From: Desulfatibacillum sp.
Lineage (GTDB): Bacteria; Desulfobacterota; Desulfobacteria; Desulfobacterales; Desulfatibacillaceae
DNA length: 64,000 nt
Direction: 5' to 3'
NCBI GenBank assembly: GCA_016342355.1
Contig: JAEINP010000023.1
Location: 1 to 64,000, forward strand
Numbering within the stretch: the stretch's first letter is position 1; every line of letters starts with the position of its first letter. The notes under the pieces are model-generated. The model was not told the DNA's origin. It did not search any database and saw nothing but the letters and a program-made list of their open reading frames with translations. This document shows positions 7,416 to 46,716 of this stretch, in pieces. Position numbers and translations under genes: made by a program.

Positions 7416-7880
7416 ATGCGCCGTAGCGACAAGGAAATCACCCACATTACAGCCATTGAGGCGGTTATTGCAAAAGCCCGGGTTTGCAGGGTGGCGTTCA
7501 GTGACGAAAATCAGCCCTACATTGTTCCCCTGTGCTTTGGCTACACTTCCGGCTATTTTTACGTTCACAGCGCAGCACTTGGAAAAAAGCTGGATATACT
7601 CCGCAATAATCCCCTGGTGTGCGTCCAACTGGAAACCGGGGTGGAGGTCATCCCGGGCGAAGGCCCTTGCAATTGGGGCATGCGCTATCAAAGCGTGACG
7701 GCCATGGGAAAAGCCCGTTTTGTGGAGGACATGGAAGGCAAACGGCAGGCCTTGGACCACATCATGGCCCGGTATACGGATCAATGGACGCCTTTCCCTG
7801 AAAAGGCCCTGAATAACACCGTTGTCATTGAAGTGGAAATCACCCAAATCACCGGCAAACAGTCGGGGCAGCCGACCTGA
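7416..7880 (+). CDS. Pyridoxamine 5'-phosphate oxidase-fold protein (NimA-like)
   Basis: The 154-residue product has the split-barrel flavin-binding fold of the PNPOx/NimA family: the N-terminal helix ITAIEAVIAKARVCRVAF, the strand YIVPLCFGYTSGYFYVHSA, GKKLDILRNNPLVCVQLE, and a later SVTAMGKARFVED strand. Family members bind FMN or F420; some reduce nitroimidazoles, others have unrelated redox roles. ATG 7416 follows CGGAGTAAAAGG. It stands alone between a terminator and a convergent gene. Substrate cannot be told from sequence. Confidence 0.8.
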   Translation: MRRSDKEITHITAIEAVIAKARVCRVAFSDENQPYIVPLCFGYTSGYFYVHSAALGKKLDILRNNPLVCVQLETGVEVIPGEGPCNWGMRYQSVTAMGKARFVEDMEGKRQALDHIMARYTDQWTPFPEKALNNTVVIEVEITQITGKQSGQPT

Positions 7881-7912
7881 TATGGAAGCATCGCCAATGT
7901 CCCACAGTGGAC

Positions 7913-8851
7913 CTAAAGTTTGGGAAAGGCTTTCAGGAAAACCCTGATGCCCCTGTTCAGCATAAAATTGTTCAGGGCTCTTTCGTCGATAGCTTCCACC
8001 TTGGGCAGGAGGCGGTACAGGGAGCCCAAAACATATTTGGCGCCATCAGTCAGGCTTGGAAGATCCTTGGCCACTGTCTCCACCTGATCTGCCAGGGCCT
8101 GCATAATCCTCCCGGAGTTTTTCAAGAGGCCCCGCATGTCTTCCTGGTCATCCAGCAGGGTATCGGCCTTGCCTATAACCGAGGCCATGGCCTTGCTCTC
8201 CCCCGCCACAGCACCAGTGATTACATTCAGATTGTCGATGAACGGCCCCCTGGTTAAAGCCTTGATGCCTTCCGTATCCTCCAGCAAATCATCGGCCTTG
8301 GCGATAATCGATTCAATCCTGTGGCTGTTTGAGGCCACGGTGCGGGCAATGGTTGCCAAGTCGGTAAACAGGCTGCTTTGGGCGATGGCTTTAAGGCCTT
8401 CGGTATCCTCCAGGATATCATCAGCCTTGCACACTAAAGAGGTGATCTGGGTTTTGTTTTGCACCACCATGTCCGTGATGCTCACCAGATTTTCCAGGAG
8501 GGGGCCAATAGCCAGGGCCAGGGCAGTGACGGATTTTTCCCCCTTTACTATGATGCTCTCCAGTTCGTCTTTGTTTTTGGTGAAAAGCCGGTCCCCTTCC
8601 ACGGCCAGGGACGTGCCTTTTTCCAAAATGGCCACCACGTTTTCCTTATTGTCTGAAATGGTTTTCAAGAGAGTGCCAAGGTCTTCCACAACTCCAACTT
8701 CTATAAGGTTTTTCAGGGAAACCTGGAGTTTGTCCACCACCTTGGTCATGCTAAGGCTCCGGGCGAGGTTGGCTGTCCGGGAAGGTTTGGGGGTCTTGGC
8801 TGCCTTGGGGGTTTTAGCTGCTTTGGGGACCCTGCCTTTAGTACTCTCCAT
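7913..8851 (-). CDS. Repetitive helical protein of unknown function
   Basis: I do not recognise a named family. ATG 8851 is preferred because GAGG sits just upstream; a GTG at 8857 would overlap that site. The N-terminus (first ~30 residues) is basic and Ala/Lys/Pro rich with the repeat KAAKTPKAAKTPKPS. The rest is long amphipathic helix with internally repeated units (SIIAKADDLLEDTEGIKAL and SLVCKADDILEDTEGLKAI, plus a weaker third, SVIGKADTLLDDQED). The helical repeats recall tails of MCE-type lipid-transport proteins, but no signal or membrane segment is present. It lies 303 bases beyond a Ser/Thr kinase gene and could be a substrate of it. Confidence 0.65.
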   Translation of the reverse strand: MESTKGRVPKAAKTPKAAKTPKPSRTANLARSLSMTKVVDKLQVSLKNLIEVGVVEDLGTLLKTISDNKENVVAILEKGTSLAVEGDRLFTKNKDELESIIVKGEKSVTALALAIGPLLENLVSITDMVVQNKTQITSLVCKADDILEDTEGLKAIAQSSLFTDLATIARTVASNSHRIESIIAKADDLLEDTEGIKALTRGPFIDNLNVITGAVAGESKAMASVIGKADTLLDDQEDMRGLLKNSGRIMQALADQVETVAKDLPSLTDGAKYVLGSLYRLLPKVEAIDERALNNFMLNRGIRVFLKAFPKL

Positions 8852-11365: not shown

Positions 11366-12184
11366 TTATTGCCTCTTGAACAAGCCGGTAAGCATGGACA
11401 GAATACCGCCGCCATGCTTAACCTTTTGGATTTTGAGGACAATGACAGTAATATTATCTTCACCACCCCGGGCGTTAGCCAGGTCCACAAGTTCGGAGCA
11501 GGCTTTGTCGGCCTTGTGGGTTGTGACAATTGCCAGAATTTCCTGTTCGTTGACCTTATTGGTCAGTCCGTCGGAACCAATGACCAGAATATCCCCGGCA
11601 AAGCATTGAATTTCTGAAACCGAGGGTTCCACGTCTGCATGGACTCCCATGGCCCGGGTGAGCATGTGCTCAAACTTGCTGTCCAGTTGGTCGGCCGCTT
11701 CCGGATCAATGGCCCTTTGTTCGTCCATTACGGTATGAGGCACCGAAATGGTCTCAATCTGGGAATCGTGGACAAGGTAGATGGGGCTGTCCCCCACATT
11801 GACTGTCACGAAGGTGTCCGAGGTCAGATAGACCCCGCTCACCGTGGAACCCATGCCACGATACTCTTTTTTTTGGGTGGAAACTTCGTAAACCACCTGG
11901 TTGGCTAAAAAGACGGAGGACAAGAGGCGATTGGCCTCCATGGAATAGGCAGGCTCGTGAATAGCCATGTCTTCCCGGCCATTCCCGGCATTGGCAGCCC
12001 TGCGGATATAGTCGGCCATGGTCTCCACAACCATTCGGCTGGCCACTTCTCCGGCAAGATGTCCCCCCATTCCGTCGGCAACCACATAAAGGCCCAACGA
12101 GTCATCCACAAAAAGGCTGTCTTCGTTGCCTTTGCGCTTTTGGCCCACGTCGGTCATGCCGGCTGATTCCACTACCAAGCTCAT
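11366..12184 (-). CDS. PP2C-type Ser/Thr protein phosphatase (Stp-like)
   Basis: The 272-residue protein is a full PPM/PP2C domain of the bacterial Stp1/PstP type. Metal-binding motifs are RKGNEDSLFV, VADGMGGHLAGE, GSDGLTN and GGEDNITVIVL. No membrane segment is present. It lies downstream of the CHASE2 receptor kinase and upstream of the FHA protein on the same strand, the usual kinase/phosphatase pairing; it should reverse phosphorylation by the two kinases in this block. ATG 12184 has only a weak purine-rich stretch upstream. Confidence 0.92.
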   Translation of the reverse strand: MSLVVESAGMTDVGQKRKGNEDSLFVDDSLGLYVVADGMGGHLAGEVASRMVVETMADYIRRAANAGNGREDMAIHEPAYSMEANRLLSSVFLANQVVYEVSTQKKEYRGMGSTVSGVYLTSDTFVTVNVGDSPIYLVHDSQIETISVPHTVMDEQRAIDPEAADQLDSKFEHMLTRAMGVHADVEPSVSEIQCFAGDILVIGSDGLTNKVNEQEILAIVTTHKADKACSELVDLANARGGEDNITVIVLKIQKVKHGGGILSMLTGLFKRQ

Positions 12185-12314
12185 ATAATGTTTTCCGCCT
12201 TCCCGGGCTGCGCCTGTCCGCGCCAGATATCCCCACCATTATGGATAGGGTACTATACTTGATTTTGTTTGTTTATTCAACAATACTCAGAAAAAAAACA
12301 CGCAATTGAGGCTT

Positions 12315-14879
12315 CTATCCCTCAACATCCTTTTTTTGAGCCGCAATGGCATCTATTTTCTGTCCCAACTGACGTAAATGGGCCGCCATTTGTCCAGCTT
12401 TTTGGTAACGTTTTTCCCTGTCTTTCTCCAGGGCCTTGTTGATAATAGCAGCCAAGGGCTTGGGGATTTTGGGATTGTGCTGCCTGGGGTCAGGATGCGT
12501 CACGTTCATGATCTGGTGCATAAGAGCAGCCACCGACTCACCGTGGAAAGGCAACTTGCCCGTTAACATCTGGTAGGTCATGACTCCTACGGAAAAAATG
12601 TCGGACCGGCCATCCACCCTTTGTCCGGCTATTTGCTCCGGGCTCATGTAGTAGGGCGTGCCCTTGACCACGCCGGTCTGGGTCTGGGAGGTGGCGGTAA
12701 TACGGGCGATGCCAAAGTCCGTAATTTTTACAATACCTTGTTTGAGCAGCATGATATTGGCGGGTTTGATATCCCTATGGACGATCCCCTTGGAGTGGGC
12801 ATAGTCCAGGGCGTCGCAAATATCGGCTATGTATTGGATGACTTTGCGCATGGGCAGGAGTTTGCCTGGCTTGATGTGGTCGTCCAGGTCTCCGCCTTCC
12901 AGAAACTCCATGGCAATGTATGCCAAGTCCTGTTCCTCGCCCGCGTCATAGATGGTCACAATATTGGGATGGGACAGGGTGCCAGCACTTTCCGCTTCCC
13001 GGAAGAACTTTTCCTTCATCTTTGCCGCTTCCTCTTCCTGGAAGTCGTCGGAAAAGCGAACGGTCTTGATGGCTGTGGTGCGGTTGATCCGGGGATCCTT
13101 GCCAAGATAGACAATGCCCATGGCTCCCTTGCCAAGCATTTTGGAAACCTCGTAACGGCCCAAAGTGGGTTTGGTGTCCGAACCCTCTGAAATTAGGGTG
13201 TCTGACACTCCGCCGCCGCCCAAAATGCCCGCGCCAAAAACCATGGTTTCGCTGGCTTGCATGAGCTTGGTTTTGCGTGTGGACACGTCCTTGAATTTTT
13301 GGTCGTGTTCCTCGATGTACTCATACACGCTGGCGGCCTTGTTGAACTGCCTTTTGCGTTCAAAGTCCAGGGCCAGGTTGTACAGGAGGTCCTTAACCTC
13401 TCCATCCACCGGAACCCTGCGGAATTTATCAAAGGCCATGTCCAGCATGCCCTGGTTCTGAAAGGAAAGACCCAGCATGCGGTTGGTTTCGGCCGATTCG
13501 CCCTTGGCCTTTTCCATACCGGTTTCGCTCACAAAGTACTGGATGGTTACGGCCCCGATATAACTGAGTACGAGTTGGACCATGGCGTACATGACCGGCA
13601 TCCATACCCCGTTGGAAACCATCAAGTAAAAACTGCCGCCAGCCAGACCAAAAAGCAGCACCACAAAGATCAGGGCTGCAAACAGGGCCTTTAACCGGGG
13701 CATTAACAGGGCGCTTAAAAGACCGATAATCAGGATAAAGAGCAACTGGGCCGTCCCTGTCCAGGGAGGCTGCTGGATAAAGTCGCTGTTGAGCATGGTC
13801 CATATGGCGTTGGCGGAAAATTCCCCGGGAGTCATGTCGCCGGTGGGGGTGGATAAAAGGTCGGTAATGCCGGGCGCTGTAATGGTGACAATGACTAATT
13901 TGTTCTTGAATATGCCAGGCTTCACCGAGCCATTGAGAACCTCGAAGAAAGAGTACGACTGGAATGCCCCGGGAGGTCCTTTGTAGCTGACCATGATGGA
14001 CCCGTCCGCCATGGTGGGGATTTCCCGGGTTTTGATGCGCAGCCCGTACCCCATGGCGACAAGGGCCTCGTCCTGTCCGGCGCCCAGATACTGCCACAAA
14101 AGGCTTGCCGTATAAGACGGGATGGGCAGGACTTCGTTCACGCCCCCCCCATTGAAATAAAGCACTTCCCGGCGAACCACTCCGTCCGGATCGGGGCTCA
14201 CATTGATGTGGCCAATGCCGATGCAGGCGTAAAGGAACTGGTCCACAGGAAGAATTATTTCGGACGCAGGGCGGGGGACCAGGTTGTCATCAGGAATTTC
14301 CAGGGAAAGGGCCAGAGGGAACAGGACTTCAAGAGGTTCGTCCGGAGGAGGAACTGCGTCGGACATGGAATAATACACGGGCAGGACCACATTGCCGGCC
14401 TCGTCCATGGCCGCCGCCAGGGTGCTGTCAAAGTCCAGGGCAATCCTGGCTTCTTCCATGGCGTTTAGAAATTTTTGAACCCGTTCCTGGTGCTGGGCGT
14501 CTTCCACGTCTCCAAAAGAAACGGAAAACATCTCCTTGAGGGTTTCCAGGATTTCCACGCTATCCGATGTTTGGGCTTCGGACAGAATGATGTTCAAACC
14601 AATGACTTTGGGCGCTCCCCCGCTGATGGTGCGGATGCCTTCGGCAAGCACGGTCCTGGGCCAGGGCCACCGGCCAAGACGTTTGATGGACTCCTCGTCC
14701 ACTTCCACCAAAATCACGTCGCTGGGGGCTTCGAAATCACCGCGTACACTCATGGTGAGGTCATAGAATTTGTTGTCCAAGGCATCAAGGAATTCCACCC
14801 CGAAGGTGTTCAGGGCAAAGAAGACGAGCATGATGAAGAAACCAAGGAATACAGCGGGATATTTTTTGAAGACGCCCAT
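12315..14879 (-). CDS. CHASE2-domain receptor Ser/Thr protein kinase
   Basis: The protein has 854 residues. A membrane helix at about 8-26 is followed by an extracytoplasmic CHASE2 sensor (about 30-350, with VILVEVDEESIKRLGRWPWPR), three closely spaced membrane helices (about 360-430), a helical TPR-like linker (about 455-550), and a C-terminal Hanks-type kinase (about 575-835: LGKGAMGIVYLG, TAIKTV, HRDIKPANIM, DFGIA, GTPYYMSPEQ). ATG 14879 is backed by GGAGGAAT. CHASE2 receptors sense unknown extracellular cues and usually carry cyclase, GGDEF or kinase outputs. It is the first gene of the kinase/phosphatase/FHA block and the only one with a membrane sensor. Confidence 0.92.
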   Translation of the reverse strand: MGVFKKYPAVFLGFFIMLVFFALNTFGVEFLDALDNKFYDLTMSVRGDFEAPSDVILVEVDEESIKRLGRWPWPRTVLAEGIRTISGGAPKVIGLNIILSEAQTSDSVEILETLKEMFSVSFGDVEDAQHQERVQKFLNAMEEARIALDFDSTLAAAMDEAGNVVLPVYYSMSDAVPPPDEPLEVLFPLALSLEIPDDNLVPRPASEIILPVDQFLYACIGIGHINVSPDPDGVVRREVLYFNGGGVNEVLPIPSYTASLLWQYLGAGQDEALVAMGYGLRIKTREIPTMADGSIMVSYKGPPGAFQSYSFFEVLNGSVKPGIFKNKLVIVTITAPGITDLLSTPTGDMTPGEFSANAIWTMLNSDFIQQPPWTGTAQLLFILIIGLLSALLMPRLKALFAALIFVVLLFGLAGGSFYLMVSNGVWMPVMYAMVQLVLSYIGAVTIQYFVSETGMEKAKGESAETNRMLGLSFQNQGMLDMAFDKFRRVPVDGEVKDLLYNLALDFERKRQFNKAASVYEYIEEHDQKFKDVSTRKTKLMQASETMVFGAGILGGGGVSDTLISEGSDTKPTLGRYEVSKMLGKGAMGIVYLGKDPRINRTTAIKTVRFSDDFQEEEAAKMKEKFFREAESAGTLSHPNIVTIYDAGEEQDLAYIAMEFLEGGDLDDHIKPGKLLPMRKVIQYIADICDALDYAHSKGIVHRDIKPANIMLLKQGIVKITDFGIARITATSQTQTGVVKGTPYYMSPEQIAGQRVDGRSDIFSVGVMTYQMLTGKLPFHGESVAALMHQIMNVTHPDPRQHNPKIPKPLAAIINKALEKDREKRYQKAGQMAAHLRQLGQKIDAIAAQKKDVEG

Positions 14880-34721: not shown

Positions 34722-37415
34722 TCAATTATAATCTTCCGGGTTCCAGGGGAGCGCTTTTTCGGGCGGCGCGGTAAGCGACAACTGCTGCTGTTTGTTGGCG
34801 GACGCTCCCCACCGACCTGTCTCGTGGGCAGGCAAGGCCCGGGTGTAAGACGCGCCGATCCGGGATTGGGTTTGTTCTCCCAGGCTGTTTGCTCCTGTTT
34901 TGAGTTTAAATGTAGACAGGAGGTGTTTCAAATAGTTGGCCTGGGAGTTTAGTTCCTGGGCTGCTGCGGCGGTTTCCTCGGCATTGGCCGTGTTCTGCTG
35001 GGTGGCGCCGTCAATCTGGTGCAGGCCTTGATTGATTTGCGCCACGCCTTGGGCCTGCTCATTGGAAGCTGCGGCGATCTCCCCAACCAGATCCGAAACC
35101 TTGGAAATTCCTTCCACAATTTCCTTTATGGTTTCGGCTGTTTCCAGGACCATGGATGTTCCTCTTTCCACTTTTTTCAGTGATCCTTCTATTAGTCCGG
35201 CGGTCTCTTCGGCTGCTTTGGCGCTGCGGGCCGCCAGATTTCTCACTTCCTGGGCGACCACGGCAAAGCCTTTGCCATGTTTGCCGGCCCTGGCCGCCTC
35301 CACTGCGGCATTCAGGGCCAGGAGATTGGTCTGGAAGGCTATCCCATCTATAACCTTATTGATTTTGGCGATATCCGCCGAAGCCCTTTCGATTTCCGTC
35401 ATGGCCTCCACCACGATTTCCATTTGTTCGTTACCGCGGGTTCCCGAGTCCCTGGCTGACCCCGCCAATGTATTGGCCAGGGTGGCGTTTTCGGCGTTGG
35501 TTTTTGTCTGGGTTCCGATTTGGGACATGGAGGCGGTGATTTCTTCCATGGAGGCAGCCTGTTCCGTAGCGTTTTGGGAGAGCGACTGGCTGGCCTCGGC
35601 GATCTGGTTGGAACTGACCTGGACCTGAGAAGCTCCTTGGAGCACATTACCCACAATTTCGTTCAGGCTGTGAACCATGCGATCCAGAGCATTGCCCAAA
35701 ACATCCTTGTCGGAAACCAGGTTCACGTCCATTCGAAGTTCCCCGGAAGCAATGGCCTGGGCCACTTTGGCTTTTGCCTCCAGAGCGTCCGCCATGGAGT
35801 CCAGGGCTTTGGACAGTTCCCCTACCTCATCTCCGGCATCGGAATGAAGCCGCTGGGTCAGGTCCCCCAAGGCGACGGCTTCGGCCAGTCCCAAAGTTTT
35901 TTTGATGGGATTGGTAATGACCCTGGAAATAATCAAAGTCAGAAAAATGGCCGCCAATACGGCAAAAACGCTAACCACCACCACGTTGCGGCGGGTGGTC
36001 ATTGCCTCGTCCAACATGACCTGTTCCGAAACCATGCTTTGCCGGACCTCTTTCACCATGGCGCTCATCAGCGCCCTTACCTGGCTCAGGGAGGGAACTG
36101 TTTCGTTCAAAAAAATCCTGCTGGCGTCCCTTTGGCCCGTCTCAAAACTCTCTTCCACGCCAATAGCTTGGGCGAAAAGTTTTTTGAGTGTGTCCATGGC
36201 CGGAATGGTTTGGGCGTTGTAAACTTTTATAACATCTTCCATTTGTAGATTATTGATATGCTTAATCATGCTTTTTGCGGATTGGTGCAATTCCCCATGC
36301 GGTTTTTTCATGGTAGCCAATATGGCGCCGAATTCGGGAATTTCCGCGGCCAAGGCGTGGGTTTTGGGATCTGCAAGAAACTTTCCGAATCCGCACAATG
36401 TGGGATCTGTCTGGATGTCGATGGTAAACGCCTTGCCTTCAGCGATTCCCATAGCTCTCTTTACAACAGTCGGGTTGGAGTTATCCACATAAACCCCGCT
36501 GCCCGCTATCCACCCCCAGGGTTTAAAGACCTTTACAAAGGAGACCTTTGGCAGGGCGGGGCCGCCTTGTTCCCGTGGCCACAAGTAGGCCGTAAAACCC
36601 TCGCCGCGTGATTGACCAATCTGTGTCATTTCCGTGAAAAACCGGAGCCCGTTTGAATCTTCATAGGCGTCCAGGTTTTGCCCATCCATGGACGGCTGGA
36701 CAGGATGCATGACCATTTGGTTTTCCGTGTTCTGTATCCATATATAATCCCGGTTCTCCGGTCCAAAGCGGATGGCCCTTATCATTTCCATGGCCTTTGA
36801 TTGCCGGGCCTGCAGGTCTCCCAGTTCAGGATTGTCCTCGCAGGCCTGCATAAGGGAGAGGGCGATATCCACGGAATCCTTCACCCTGGCCTGATACGTG
36901 TACATTCCCCCCGCCTCTTCGGCCACCCCTTGCATGAGTTTGCCTATCCATAGCATATGGTCATTAAGTCGAACGTTCAAGGTCTGGGAAAGTCCCGCAT
37001 GGGGCTGTTTATACACACTGGCTATGTGCTTGGCGGAATTGTGGAGGGTTGCCAGAGGGCTTTCCAACTGGTTGAGCAGAGGCGCTATTGATGGGACCTT
37101 GGTCTCTATATTGTTGCGCTCCCGGGAATGATACCAGCTTCCCACAGGGCTTTTGGCCGGATCAGTTTCTATGTCCAGTTGGGTGATGGAGTCATCATTG
37201 AGCAAATTCGAGATATGGTCAGCCCAATTGATAGTGTCCAATTCCTTTTGAGAAAAAAAACTTTGAAGCCGGTTACCCTCGATAACCTGGTTGGCATTGT
37301 CCACAATGCCGCCCACACCCACAAAACTGATTGTTCCCACAGTAATTAGGAGAATCATCACTACTCCAAAGCCCACAGCCAAGCGGGTTCCGATACTAAA
37401 GTTTTTCCATTTCAT
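34722..37415 (-). CDS. Methyl-accepting chemotaxis protein with Cache sensor and CZB-like flanks
   Basis: The protein has 897 residues. A membrane helix at about 10-32 opens a ~450-residue outer region. In it a single Cache domain (about 225-320, [14 protein letters not shown] to [13 protein letters not shown]) lies between two CZB-like helical segments ([14 protein letters not shown] with [22 protein letters not shown] with [10 protein letters not shown]). A second membrane helix near 490, HAMP, and the long MCP signalling coiled coil (tip region [16 protein letters not shown]) follow. A ~60-residue tail ends [11 protein letters not shown] 37415 follows AAGGGAG. It senses a small molecule outside the cell; no chemotaxis kinase genes are near. 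Confidence 0.92.
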
Positions 37416-42551: not shown

Positions 42552-43721
42552 ATGTACTTGTCAGCATTTCTACACAGGGACGAGCTTTTTGAAATTACCA
42601 ACCGCTGGCTATGCGATGAGTATCGGCCAACGGACCCGCTTCAGATCACCCGGATTATCACCTACGACAGCTTTGCAGCCTGGCAAACCCTCATGGACGT
42701 GACCAACCGAATTCTGACCGCTTTATCGGGAAAAATTCCCCATGAACAACGGGTCAAATCCAAGAAGGAACTCAAAGACTTTTTGTGCCATTCCGCCCGG
42801 AGGCAGTGTTTGGGCATCCAGACCCTGATCGAGCAGTATATGGAGACTCCGGAATTCTATTATGTGGGTTCTCCCATGGCCGGAATCGTTTATCATGATG
42901 AATCCATGAATATTCTGGGAGCGTGCCGGTTCAAAAAAGCCCGGCGTATTGCGGAAAAATCCAACCGATACGCCTCCAGGCACATTTTTGAAATGGTGCG
43001 GGAAAAGGCTGTGGCCCTGATGGAAGCCCGGGAAAAGCAGGGTGTCCGTAAGGGCATCGATCCCCAGGAGCTCTATGAGCAGGCTGAAAAAATGGTCATG
43101 AAAGAGATCCGGGCCAACGGCCTGAAGCTGCCTGTCGAACCCATGACCATCCAGGACATCCTGGGTTTTAAGGTTGTGGACCAGGGGTTTGGGGAAGCAG
43201 GCCTGGAAAAGGCCATCCTGAACATGGGGAACGCCCGGATTGTGGAGAAGGAATGCCATACCGGCAAATACAATGCCGTGCATTACGTGATTCAGGTGGA
43301 TGTGGATTATTCCTGCTTATGCAGAAAGTTCAGGCAAAACGGCAAGGGCCCGGCTTATGCCCGGCGAGGCCTGCCAGGAGACCGGATTCACGAGGATTTT
43401 GAGGAGTTTATCCAAACCGGAGCCAAGGACCTCTCCGTGGACCTCATTTTCACCACCTACGAGGAAATGATCCAGTCGGAAATCGGCAGGAGCATGCATG
43501 AAACCCGAATATTCGCCCAACGGAGCAACCAACGGGTATTCGGAAACATCCCGGTCAATATCGAGTACCTCATGGAGTATCTGCTGGCCGTTGGCCTGTG
43601 TCCCAGGGTGGAGCTGGACGAAATTCCCATCAAGATTTGGGGACGGTATTTGCCCGAAACCCTGGCCTACTGCATTCGTAAGCTCTTTGGCATGCCCGAA
43701 TATTCCCTCATGGGTTTCTGA
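42552..43721 (+). CDS. Unassigned protein with RelA/SpoT-like nucleotidyltransferase signatures
   Basis: The 389-residue protein has no sure family. Several segments recall RelA/SpoT synthetase domains in the right order: MTIQDILGFKVVD (about 198-210, compare the DIxGxRV strand), GKYNAVHYVIQVDVD (about 238-250, compare GYxAxHxVV), and LIFTTYEEMIQSEIGRSMHETR (about 298-318, compare the EIQxRTxxxxxxE helix). An N-terminal helical part (1-180) has no match I can name. The catalytic Asp/Glu of the synthetase cannot all be placed, so it could be degenerate or a different pol-beta-fold enzyme. The start lacks a clear ribosome site. It faces the DctP gene. Confidence 0.5.
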   Translation: MYLSAFLHRDELFEITNRWLCDEYRPTDPLQITRIITYDSFAAWQTLMDVTNRILTALSGKIPHEQRVKSKKELKDFLCHSARRQCLGIQTLIEQYMETPEFYYVGSPMAGIVYHDESMNILGACRFKKARRIAEKSNRYASRHIFEMVREKAVALMEAREKQGVRKGIDPQELYEQAEKMVMKEIRANGLKLPVEPMTIQDILGFKVVDQGFGEAGLEKAILNMGNARIVEKECHTGKYNAVHYVIQVDVDYSCLCRKFRQNGKGPAYARRGLPGDRIHEDFEEFIQTGAKDLSVDLIFTTYEEMIQSEIGRSMHETRIFAQRSNQRVFGNIPVNIEYLMEYLLAVGLCPRVELDEIPIKIWGRYLPETLAYCIRKLFGMPEYSLMGF

Positions 43722-43797: not shown

Positions 43798-45633
43798 CTA
43801 CCTGAGTTGTTCCAGTATGCCCTCCAATACAGGCAGGACCTGTCGGTTGGGATCATTTCGCAGTTTTTGCTCTTCCTGGGCCATGACTACAAAAAAGGCA
43901 TCAAGGGTTTTTTCCGTAATGTACTGATTCCAGTCCTGAATAGGCTTGCCTATTTCCGGGCTTAGTTTTTGGGCGCTGTCTATAAAGATTTGATACTTGC
44001 TGGAAAGTCCGGAGGATTGGATAGCTTCGGGAACATCTTTTCCTATTTGATAAACGAGAGTGTCACGGTAGATTCTCTCAAAATTTTCCGTCATCAATGA
44101 CTCACCGGATATGGAGAGTAACGCTGCGGAATCGGTCTCCGGATCCTCTCCGTTTTGCTTAACCAAGGCCATGATAGTTTTTCGATTGATAGAAATCATT
44201 TGGGTGGCAGCCTCATTAAGGCTCTTGGCAAGCGCTTCACAAGGTTCTTTCAGCCCGGATTGTATCATTTGCCTTTGAATGGGTTGCAATAGATCCGGGA
44301 GAGCAATATGCAAAGCCGGGTCTGCCCATAGTCCCTGGGTTTCCACACGGTTTATCGTTTCCAGGGCGGCCTGCTCCATATTGTTCCGGATAGCTATTCG
44401 GATTTCCGTTTGGGCTCTGCTAAAGATGTCGTTGAATGCGTTAGCCCGTTCCAAAATGTCTTCCAGATCTTTGTCTGTGGCGCCTTTTGGGCTCATACTA
44501 TTCCATATTTCAACAACCTCCTCGCGCATCCGAGCAACGTTTTGCAGCACCTCCTGTTGCTTTTTCACGCATTGGGCGCAGGATTCCAAATTTCGATATG
44601 CCTGGATACGGCCTTGGATTTCATCCAATAATTCCTGGGGGTACATTTCCTCTTGCGCCAGCTTGTTCCGGAGTTTTTCAGAGATGGCCCGCATTTGGGC
44701 CATGCTTTCGGAATCGGTGTGAACGGGTTTGACACCATATTGGATCATAGCCTTCAGGGCTTTTTGATTATCGGTCCGCACAATAGTGCAATAGGCTTCA
44801 GAAAGGGGCACCCGCAACTCCAAAAGGCGCTGCTTGTATTGCTCCAGTTCGGGATAGGCCTCCCACAACTCTTTGCGACAGAGGATCACTCCCGGCGAAT
44901 ATCGGATTTTTATGGGATTGACGTACTCCACCTTGGAATACAATTGCGCTCCCACTATCCACATGGCAGGACCTATGCTGGCGTCCACCACGCCCTGGCG
45001 CACATTAGTGGCGAATTCAGGCACATTGACCTGGATTAAATTGGCGCCAAATTCCTGGAGGAATCTCTCCTCCACCGGCCCGTACCAGGACCCGAATTTC
45101 AGTTTGGCAAAATCCTCCAAGGTGGCTACTGGTCGTCCGTTGGAGTATATCTGATCAAAATCCTGATCCACCCACGCAATGAGAAAAAAACCCCGTTCCT
45201 CCATGATTTTGTCAAAAGCCGGAAACATGGAGTATTTTATGATATCCACTTCGTTGTAGTCGTTGAAAAGAAAGGGCAGTTCCAGCACACTCATTTCCGG
45301 CGCAGCCAGGGTGGCCCCCTGGGCGGAAAAACCCGCACCGTCCAGCTGTCCGATACGGATTTTTCTTAGGATGTCCTCATCGTCCCCCATGGATCCTCCC
45401 CAATAGACCTTGACTTTCACCAGTCCGTCGGTCTCTTTTTGGATCAGGGGAAACAAAACCCGCTTGATAGGAAGAGCCCACGAAGTGCCGTCCGGCGCCA
45501 GGGTGCCAAATTTCCACACATGCTGGGGAGAAGCTAGCTCTGTGCATAGGCCTGGACTGCTCAGAAAGGATATCAGGGCCAGGAAGGCAATCCAGAAAAC
45601 GTGGCGGGATGATTTGCACATGAATATTGGCAA
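43798..45633 (-). CDS. DctP-type TRAP solute receptor fused to a DUF4197-like domain
   Basis: The start is TTG 45633, five bases after AGGAGG; a signal peptide follows (FWIAFLALISFLSSPGLC). Residues about 35-330 are a DctP TRAP receptor (WKFGTLAPDGTSWA, GGSMGDDEDILRKIRIGQLDGAGFSAQG, LPFLFNDYNEVD, FGSWYGPVEERFLQEFGA). After a helical linker with a Cys-x-x-Cys (CAQC), residues ~410-605 follow the DUF4197 pattern: ALHIALPDLLQPIQRQM, LNEAATQMISINRKTIMAL, an internal SGESLM segment, NQYITEKTLDAFFVVMAQEEQKLRNDP. No TRAP membrane subunits are near. The joined protein may be a periplasmic binding protein with a second function. Confidence 0.8.
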   Translation of the reverse strand: MPIFMCKSSRHVFWIAFLALISFLSSPGLCTELASPQHVWKFGTLAPDGTSWALPIKRVLFPLIQKETDGLVKVKVYWGGSMGDDEDILRKIRIGQLDGAGFSAQGATLAAPEMSVLELPFLFNDYNEVDIIKYSMFPAFDKIMEERGFFLIAWVDQDFDQIYSNGRPVATLEDFAKLKFGSWYGPVEERFLQEFGANLIQVNVPEFATNVRQGVVDASIGPAMWIVGAQLYSKVEYVNPIKIRYSPGVILCRKELWEAYPELEQYKQRLLELRVPLSEAYCTIVRTDNQKALKAMIQYGVKPVHTDSESMAQMRAISEKLRNKLAQEEMYPQELLDEIQGRIQAYRNLESCAQCVKKQQEVLQNVARMREEVVEIWNSMSPKGATDKDLEDILERANAFNDIFSRAQTEIRIAIRNNMEQAALETINRVETQGLWADPALHIALPDLLQPIQRQMIQSGLKEPCEALAKSLNEAATQMISINRKTIMALVKQNGEDPETDSAALLSISGESLMTENFERIYRDTLVYQIGKDVPEAIQSSGLSSKYQIFIDSAQKLSPEIGKPIQDWNQYITEKTLDAFFVVMAQEEQKLRNDPNRQVLPVLEGILEQLR

Positions 45634-45723: not shown

Positions 45724-46293
45724 CTAAGCCATGAGCGGTTGGAACTGCATGGCGAAAGCCATGTCGCCCTCAATTTTTAGCGTACCATTCATAAACATGT
45801 TTACCGGGTTGGTCTGTTTGGTGGTCAACAGGCGGGCGTCGTCCATAGTGAGGCTGAATTTAGCTTCCGGCGCATAAGCGCCGTTGAAAGTGGCCCGAAT
45901 AACGGCATTATTGCCATTGTTCCCAGCCAGATCAAATACTGCGGCGCCCTTAAGAGAGGCCAGGACATTGTATTTGGTTTTGGAAAGAGCCTCCTGCATG
46001 CTCAGCAACATATCGATATTTTTCATCTGCGCCAATTTTTGCATGTCTTCCAGCGTGATGGTGAGATGCACCATGGGATTATCCAGTGTGCCTTCCCTGG
46101 CATTAAAGTCTTTCCCCTCTTTGACCACAAAGCTATACTGACTGCCCGAAATATCCACCGTCATGGAGAACTCTGTTCCGGCCAGTTCCTGTCCCATTCC
46201 CCTCAGACCCATATACTCCAATGCCATTTTAGGTAAGAACTCGGTCACCAATTCCTTGACATCAAGACTTAAAACAATGGTCTGAGTGCTCAT
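45724..46293 (-). CDS. SCP2-type sterol/lipid carrier domain protein
   Basis: The 189-residue protein starts at ATG 46293 behind CAAGGAGA. It has the SCP2 pattern: GTEFSMTVDISGSQYSFVVKEG, NPMVHLTITLEDMQKLAQ, and the late strand NPVNMFMNGTLKIEGDMAFAMQFQPL. Such proteins bind acyl-CoA or lipids. A strong palindrome lies 78 bp upstream. It is next to the DctP fusion on the same strand (90 bases apart), so the two may be co-transcribed. Confidence 0.85.
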   Translation of the reverse strand: MSTQTIVLSLDVKELVTEFLPKMALEYMGLRGMGQELAGTEFSMTVDISGSQYSFVVKEGKDFNAREGTLDNPMVHLTITLEDMQKLAQMKNIDMLLSMQEALSKTKYNVLASLKGAAVFDLAGNNGNNAVIRATFNGAYAPEAKFSLTMDDARLLTTKQTNPVNMFMNGTLKIEGDMAFAMQFQPLMA

Positions 46294-46716
46294 GCTTGTC
46301 TCCTTGTATTCTATCGGTAGTTTGGGGAAATGGGTTTCATAACGGCGGCGGCCGCGAACAGTCGCAAATTTTTTTGTACGTATGTACAAAAATATGGAAG
46401 ATTGGATCTGTTGTCAAGTAGTTTTTGAACGCATGGATAATTTTCTTTGAATACAGGTTTTGGGAATGGATTTCACCTTTTCATACGCAATATTATATAT
46501 TTATTCCATAGCTTATGCGAAAATATTGAATCCGCAAGTGGAGGATGAAAGATTTTTGGCCGGAAAAAAGACCCTGATTTGTGATAAATTTCGGGCCAAT
46601 TGCTCGACCTGAACCGGTAGGAAGGCCATCTTTGACTGGCTTTATTGTCGAGCTTCGTGATATGAATCTCCAGGCTCATTAACGCTCCATGAAGTTCTCC
46701 TAAGGACACGGATCCC
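46294..46716. other. Intergenic, 423 bp, divergent promoters
   Basis: Separates the SCP2 gene from the GT39-like gene. The palindrome at 46371-46392 and an AT-rich stretch (46480-46540) are regulatory candidates. No gene seen. Confidence 0.5.
46371..46392. promoter_or_regulatory. 22-bp palindromic operator TTTTTGTAC-GTAT-GTACAAAAA
   Basis: Perfect 9-bp arms (46371-46379 and 46384-46392) around GTAT, 78 bp before the SCP2 start. The form is typical of a TetR/AcrR-type dimer site. The regulator is not encoded next to it. Confidence 0.6.

Follow-up and report, generated by a model that had tools for sequence, protein, structure and literature searches.

We report a Desulfatibacillum gene in which a TRAP-type solute receptor (DctP) and a DUF4197 domain are joined in one open reading frame, and whose receptor half belongs to a class that lacks the carboxylate-binding arginine; the evidence for the fusion, and for that class, is solid. 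The gene lies in a window of 64,000 nucleotides, the whole stretch of DNA analysed here, on a 75-kb contig (C73) of a 5.26 Mb genome in 142 contigs (G000). Its parts are as follows.

43798..45633, minus strand: DctP-DUF4197 fusion gene, 611 aa from a TTG start; an alternative ATG at 45621 gives 607 aa
45544..45633, minus strand: signal-peptide-like N-terminus, translation judged by eye
44656..45495, minus strand: DctP domain (solute-binding family 7, PF03480), residues 43-322, Pfam E 9.8e-37
44413..44655, minus strand: linker, residues 323-403, mostly helical in the models at moderate to low confidence
43822..44412, minus strand: DUF4197 domain (PF13852), residues 404-600, Pfam E 5.4e-23, all-helical in the model

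The fusion is a single uninterrupted frame on the minus strand with its 3' end at 43798. Because a Shine-Dalgarno AAGGAGG precedes the TTG at 45633 in the genomic sequence, at a spacing of 5, this start is preferred to the ATG at 45621, and the protein is therefore taken to be 611 aa long; residue positions follow the 607-aa numbering from the inner ATG. An earlier note had read the gene as this fusion, with a signal peptide on the receptor, and the domain search bears it out: both halves are matched far beyond chance. PF03480 scores 127.2 bits against a gathering score of 23.4, and DUF4197, which the note had placed at residues 400-605, is found by its HMM at 404-600 with 82.1 bits against 24.9, over profile positions 4-195 of 199 (E 8.2e-24 in a Pfam scan of just the last 270 aa); the third-best Pfam match in the fusion region, at E 0.018, falls under its cut-off. 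NCBIfam TRAP_S1 matches residues 37-308 (E 3.3e-57), the score for TIGR00787 dctP is below the cut-off (84.9 against 175.05 bits), and the structures related to the first half are those of TRAP receptors, the best being 4p47 (8.8e-22), with the TatP(T) structure 4di3 matching at 1e-9. The hydrophobic N-terminus, judged by eye, suits a Sec signal peptide.

With a draft genome of 142 contigs, an assembly or annotation artefact has to be considered, but we regard it as extremely improbable here, as one stop-free frame holds both domains within a 75-kb contig and no other locus found in the genome is a duplicate of either half. The receptor half is at most about 51% identical to the other own-genome receptors found, and the DUF4197 half is 27% identical to the other own-genome DUF4197; with each half this far from any further copy found in the genome, an assembly chimera appears unlikely.

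The receptor half was aligned with 47 other receptors of the family and one from another family (G013), 49 in all, which came from fetched loci, are at least 220 aa long and represent part of the 132 receptor frames listed for the family; two DctPs of the same genome that are encoded beside DctM were aligned together with them. In the column of the carboxylate-binding Arg, none of the 49 class receptors has Arg and both DctPs sited with DctM keep it, and a W-x-G-x-x-E motif following the column is invariant in all 49. The fusion has Gly177 there, followed by S-W-Y-G-P-V-E, and so lacks the conserved Arg of PF03480, an absence that is expected of TPAT receptors. According to a review (PMC5812351), Arg occupies this position in 96.8% of 6,142 sequences, and TatPT homologues are mostly without it, most having Ala there; the same text gives hydrophobic molecules as the proposed substrates of TPATs and notes that, among free-living proteobacteria, these systems are found mostly in hydrocarbon degraders. 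The fusion shares with DctP/SiaP-type receptors its match to Pfam DctP, but differs from them in having Gly177 in place of their ligand-binding Arg and in scoring under the TIGR00787 cut-off. With TatP(T) of TPATs it shares sequence similarity and the missing Arg, but it is not encoded with permease genes, it carries a C-terminal DUF4197, and, whereas TatPT is a lipoprotein (PMC5812351), it is without a canonical lipobox (G/A/S before Cys), reading P-G-L-C by eye; nor is 4di3 its best PDB match, 4p47 being better. In G013, a member of the same class precedes DctQ, DctM and TatT genes (DctM as judged by its N-terminus) and matches 4di3 at 9.7e-11. We call the class TatP-like because of the Arg loss, the statements of the review and this receptor-DctQ-DctM-TatT run. 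As the fusion's pocket would be of the Arg-less kind, a dicarboxylate ligand seems unlikely; by analogy with what is known of the family, the ligand of the predicted receptor is probably hydrophobic or amphipathic.

In the usual view, a TRAP receptor diffuses freely and carries its ligand to a single cognate permease. The G000 genome has 16 DctP genes, and 14 of them, the fusion included, are on contigs without DctM. Its five DctM matches lie on C40, C37, C88, C60 and C125; on C73 there is no match to DctM or TatT, so the fusion is without the DctQ/DctM and TatT genes with which a TPAT receptor is expected to be encoded, and a DctQ search of the genome with one DctQ-containing protein as query matched C88 alone. 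The earlier note had likewise seen no TRAP membrane genes nearby, and had taken this to mean that the receptor may report its ligand to the second domain and not to a transporter. We confirm that the protein has two domains and that no DctM gene adjoins it, but the reporting role does not follow from this: missing membrane genes say little, both because 14 of the 16 DctP genes are on contigs without DctM and because a receptor-less TPAT permease on C88 could be shared by the orphan receptors. On that contig, where no receptor gene was matched, TatT and DctM lie with a 494-aa protein that has dCache_1 (1.2e-24) and DctQ (2.2e-19) domains. The same three genes are found together in D. alkenivorans (G067), the Cache-DctQ protein being 71% identical over 1-494, and the full-length form of this protein occurs in 2 of 146 genomes of the order; in G140, of the same family, the DctQ frame is only 172 aa. 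The two DctQ-dCache_1 fusions, each beside DctM and TatT with no receptor gene, are located at L171:8498-9979 (C88 of G000) and L172:3849-5429 (C44 of G067). Among the family genomes and the receptors listed, TatT and a receptor share a contig only in G140, where over 60 kb separates them; in the remaining genomes of the family the comparison covers TatT location only, the G210 TatT match is below the cut-off, and because several contigs are short and the receptors compared are the matches listed, the separation of TatT from receptors is not proven everywhere. Many receptors with few membrane partners are also a feature of the orphan Bug receptors of Bordetella (TTT family), which however belong to another receptor family and for which tail domains are not mentioned in the available part of the review (PMC5812351).

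C-terminal tails recur on the receptors of this family. Pairing of receptor frames with domain matches by contig, strand and frame length placed the peptidoglycan-binding domain PG_binding_1 on 33 of the 132 listed frames (a set that includes the fusion and a few fragments), in seven of nine family genomes: among the frames listed, G140 has nine, G210 seven, G109, G197 and G222 five each, and G163 and G180 one each. When ten example proteins were scanned with Pfam, six had both DctP and PG_binding_1 and four had DctP alone, although in one of these four (L139) the domain is missing because the stretch examined was incomplete. The PG_binding_1 tails sit after Pro/Ala-rich linkers, as in L068, L152 and L156. 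L152 has two PG_binding_1 copies, and a receptor frame in G222 (L155:17-1975, contig C454) ends, after DctP, in a tail of about 310 aa without a Pfam match at E 0.001. Judged by sequence, the DUF4197 of the fusion fits this theme of added C-terminal domains and looks like a one-off alternative tail. The analogy crosses genera, since neither genome of the genus (G000 or G067) has a PG_binding_1 receptor among the frames listed.

Other DctP-DUF4197 fusions, which the earlier note had proposed to list, were searched for in genome samples of 242, 395 and 398, which overlap and cover part of the bacteria, and among 20 named DUF4197 loci; none was seen in the samples and none of the named loci is fused to DctP. 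In G000, DUF4197 is encoded twice, once by a standalone gene on C142 and once in the fusion. In the order sample, DUF4197 is present in 102 of 242 genomes and, with frames longer than 400 aa inspected, no other match proved a receptor fusion. With the fusion's C-terminal half as query, 93 of 395 genomes in the phylum sample matched, and no second fusion was seen among frames longer than 370 aa (the 454-aa frame of G511 by BLAST only); a sample of 398 genomes from the phylum to which a gammaproteobacterium belongs gave matches in 108, mostly as frames of 230-330 aa and again with no second fusion seen, a result that leaves out four frames longer than 400 aa (409, 438 and 479 aa, and one of 623 aa with a match below the cut-off). 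Seven candidates for further fusions, with frames of 372-590 aa (L051, L112, L113, L114, L116, L117 and L118), had DUF4197 as their sole Pfam domain at E 0.001, and an eighth, L115 (the G511 frame), had no receptor by BLAST. Because neither a receptor nor a second domain was found, these long frames are best seen as containing an upstream open frame or unassigned sequence; elsewhere, then, in the frames inspected, DUF4197 is encoded by separate genes without a second Pfam domain, whereas here it is a C-terminal domain. In D. alkenivorans, some 3 kb separates the standalone DUF4197 gene (L090, contig C42 of G067; 7484-8287) from an orphan receptor gene (11423-12541) that belongs to another subgroup.

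A literature search found no paper naming DUF4197 and, in titles and abstract openings, no description of DctP-DUF4197 or DctP-peptidoglycan-binding fusions. A profile search gave no solved relative of DUF4197 (best E 0.8). The AlphaFold model of the C-terminal 283 residues of the fusion has eleven helices and is mostly confident (mean pLDDT 84.5); the full-length model is poor (pLDDT 60), as is its receptor half. For the DUF4197 half, Foldseek returned no match at E 0.001 or better (best 0.06), and VIA-align gave Z of at most 6.2, in a range that possibly means just common helical packing.

In a FastTree tree of the 49 receptors, which took in 14 of the 16 matches counted for D. alkenivorans, the pair L079/L088 joins the fusion with a support of only 0.73. 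A one-to-one partner in D. alkenivorans is lacking for the fusion but present for 11 of the 14 own receptors. The DUF4197 half groups in its tree, at a support of 0.91, with the DUF4197 genes of the family itself (G000, G067 and G109) and a copy from G608. The two groupings suggest that both halves derive most simply from genes resident in the lineage. Since only one genome was seen to carry the fusion, its function cannot be argued from a conserved architecture, and DUF4197 could be a decaying passenger that was joined by chance and has no role (yet), leaving the receptor to work like the unfused ones. Its long branch would agree with this, as would its retention of just 27 of the 66 columns conserved at 80% or more in the DUF4197 family, one of them an alignment artefact at a start Met. 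We nevertheless hold decay to be quite improbable, given a reading frame intact across about 200 diverged codons, a domain that still scores 82 bits against Pfam, and the mostly confident helical model.

We tentatively suggest, as a reading that falls short of probable, that the fusion is an exported TatP-like receptor of the TPAT kind, whose ligand would not be held by a carboxylate salt bridge. It would be part of an array of receptors amplified in the family, with the matching permease (Cache-DctQ, DctM and TatT on C88) encoded apart. A DUF4197 gene copy from within the family would have become joined to the C-terminus in a single receptor lineage, and this helical domain may act as a docking or tethering module that holds the receptor on a periplasmic partner, a role that we liken to that of the PG_binding_1 tails on receptors of sister genera. 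The docked receptor would then pass its ligand to the shared permease. More broadly, and in our view doubtfully, receptors in these bacteria may have become uncoupled from the permease to form a fixed periplasmic array that serves a shared TPAT permease, with some members attached to the cell wall or a partner through swapped tails (PG_binding_1, DUF4197 once and the unassigned tail of about 310 aa once) and with DUF4197 as a docking domain; as part of the same doubtful scheme, the Desulfatibacillum permease would have acquired a Cache sensor domain of its own on DctQ. The array scheme rests on up to about 20 receptors per genome among the matches listed, Arg-less in all 49 aligned. If it were true, DUF4197 would be a periplasmic docking domain, a first testable role for an unstudied family. 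Receptors with wall- or partner-binding tails and no cognate permease gene adjacent may be fixed in place, and this, if true, would alter the way in which these bacteria carry out uptake or sensing. For the widespread DUF4197 family, the fusion also offers a partner with which its function can be tested.

The surroundings of the gene bear on two further explanations. The features upstream of it are these.

45724..46293, minus strand: gene for an SCP2-domain protein, 189 aa, with a 90-base gap to the fusion; Pfam SCP2 E 1.2e-14 for a slightly longer reading
46389..46417, minus strand: sigma-70-like promoter TTGACA-17-TATTTT before the SCP2-fusion unit, a consensus match only
46373..46390, no strand assigned: palindrome TTTGTACATACGTACAAA, 18 bases, adjoining the -10-like hexamer

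The SCP2 gene and the fusion are likely co-transcribed. Promoter-like sites number 9 in the region against 4.3 in shuffles. The palindrome is perfect, with a chance expectation of 0.11 when up to 2 mismatches are allowed, and is a possible repressor site; it is the sole perfect copy in G000, with one single-mismatch copy on C65, and D. alkenivorans has no copy even when one mismatch is allowed, so that no regulon could be drawn. On the other side of the fusion, a 389-aa protein without significant Pfam or NCBIfam match is encoded at 42552-43721 on the plus strand. By eye the SCP2 protein has no obvious signal peptide, and the operon therefore does not point to a periplasmic partner. Such an operon could instead mean that the receptor and DUF4197 shuttle a lipid across the periplasm while the cytoplasmic SCP2 protein handles the same lipid, which the position of the SCP2 gene on the same strand behind a promoter-like site and palindrome, the Arg-less class of the fusion's pocket and the lipid hand-over in TPATs discussed in the available part of the review (PMC5812351) would all favour. 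We consider this carrier role unlikely, as the three SCP2 relatives in D. alkenivorans (36-43%; contigs C59, C26 and C94) are not beside listed receptors, the one listed receptor on these contigs (C26) being about 128 kb off.

The main rival to docking is signalling, which comes near to the idea of the earlier note and which we rate as rather unlikely: the DctP domain would sense a periplasmic ligand and DUF4197 would relay the bound state to a membrane sensor (a histidine kinase or chemoreceptor), much as TorT relays its ligand state to TorS. A histidine kinase or response regulator gene lies within about 2.5 kb at 5 of 11 fetched own-genome orphan loci (L073, L075, L076, L077 and L081), one orphan receptor (L078) is followed by the gene for an MMPL-cNMP-GGDEF protein, and a chemoreceptor-like gene is situated about 6 kb from the fusion (34722-37415). 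The 5 of 11 is, however, a raw count without a random-locus background rate, among neighbours chosen by size and scanned in part, and such genomes are rich in kinases. The other orphan neighbours are also mixed in function (flavodoxin-like reductases, an NMT1-type binding protein, Fur, GntR, a peroxidase and a pyruvate-formate-lyase-like enzyme), no kinase gene adjoins the fusion, and a permease of the matching type is present in the genome on C88. The chemoreceptor-like gene was named by eye and clusters with signalling proteins; the frame at L078:7952-11179 (contig C104 of G000), which starts 24 bases after its orphan receptor, encodes 1075 aa with MMPL, cyclic-nucleotide-binding and GGDEF domains.
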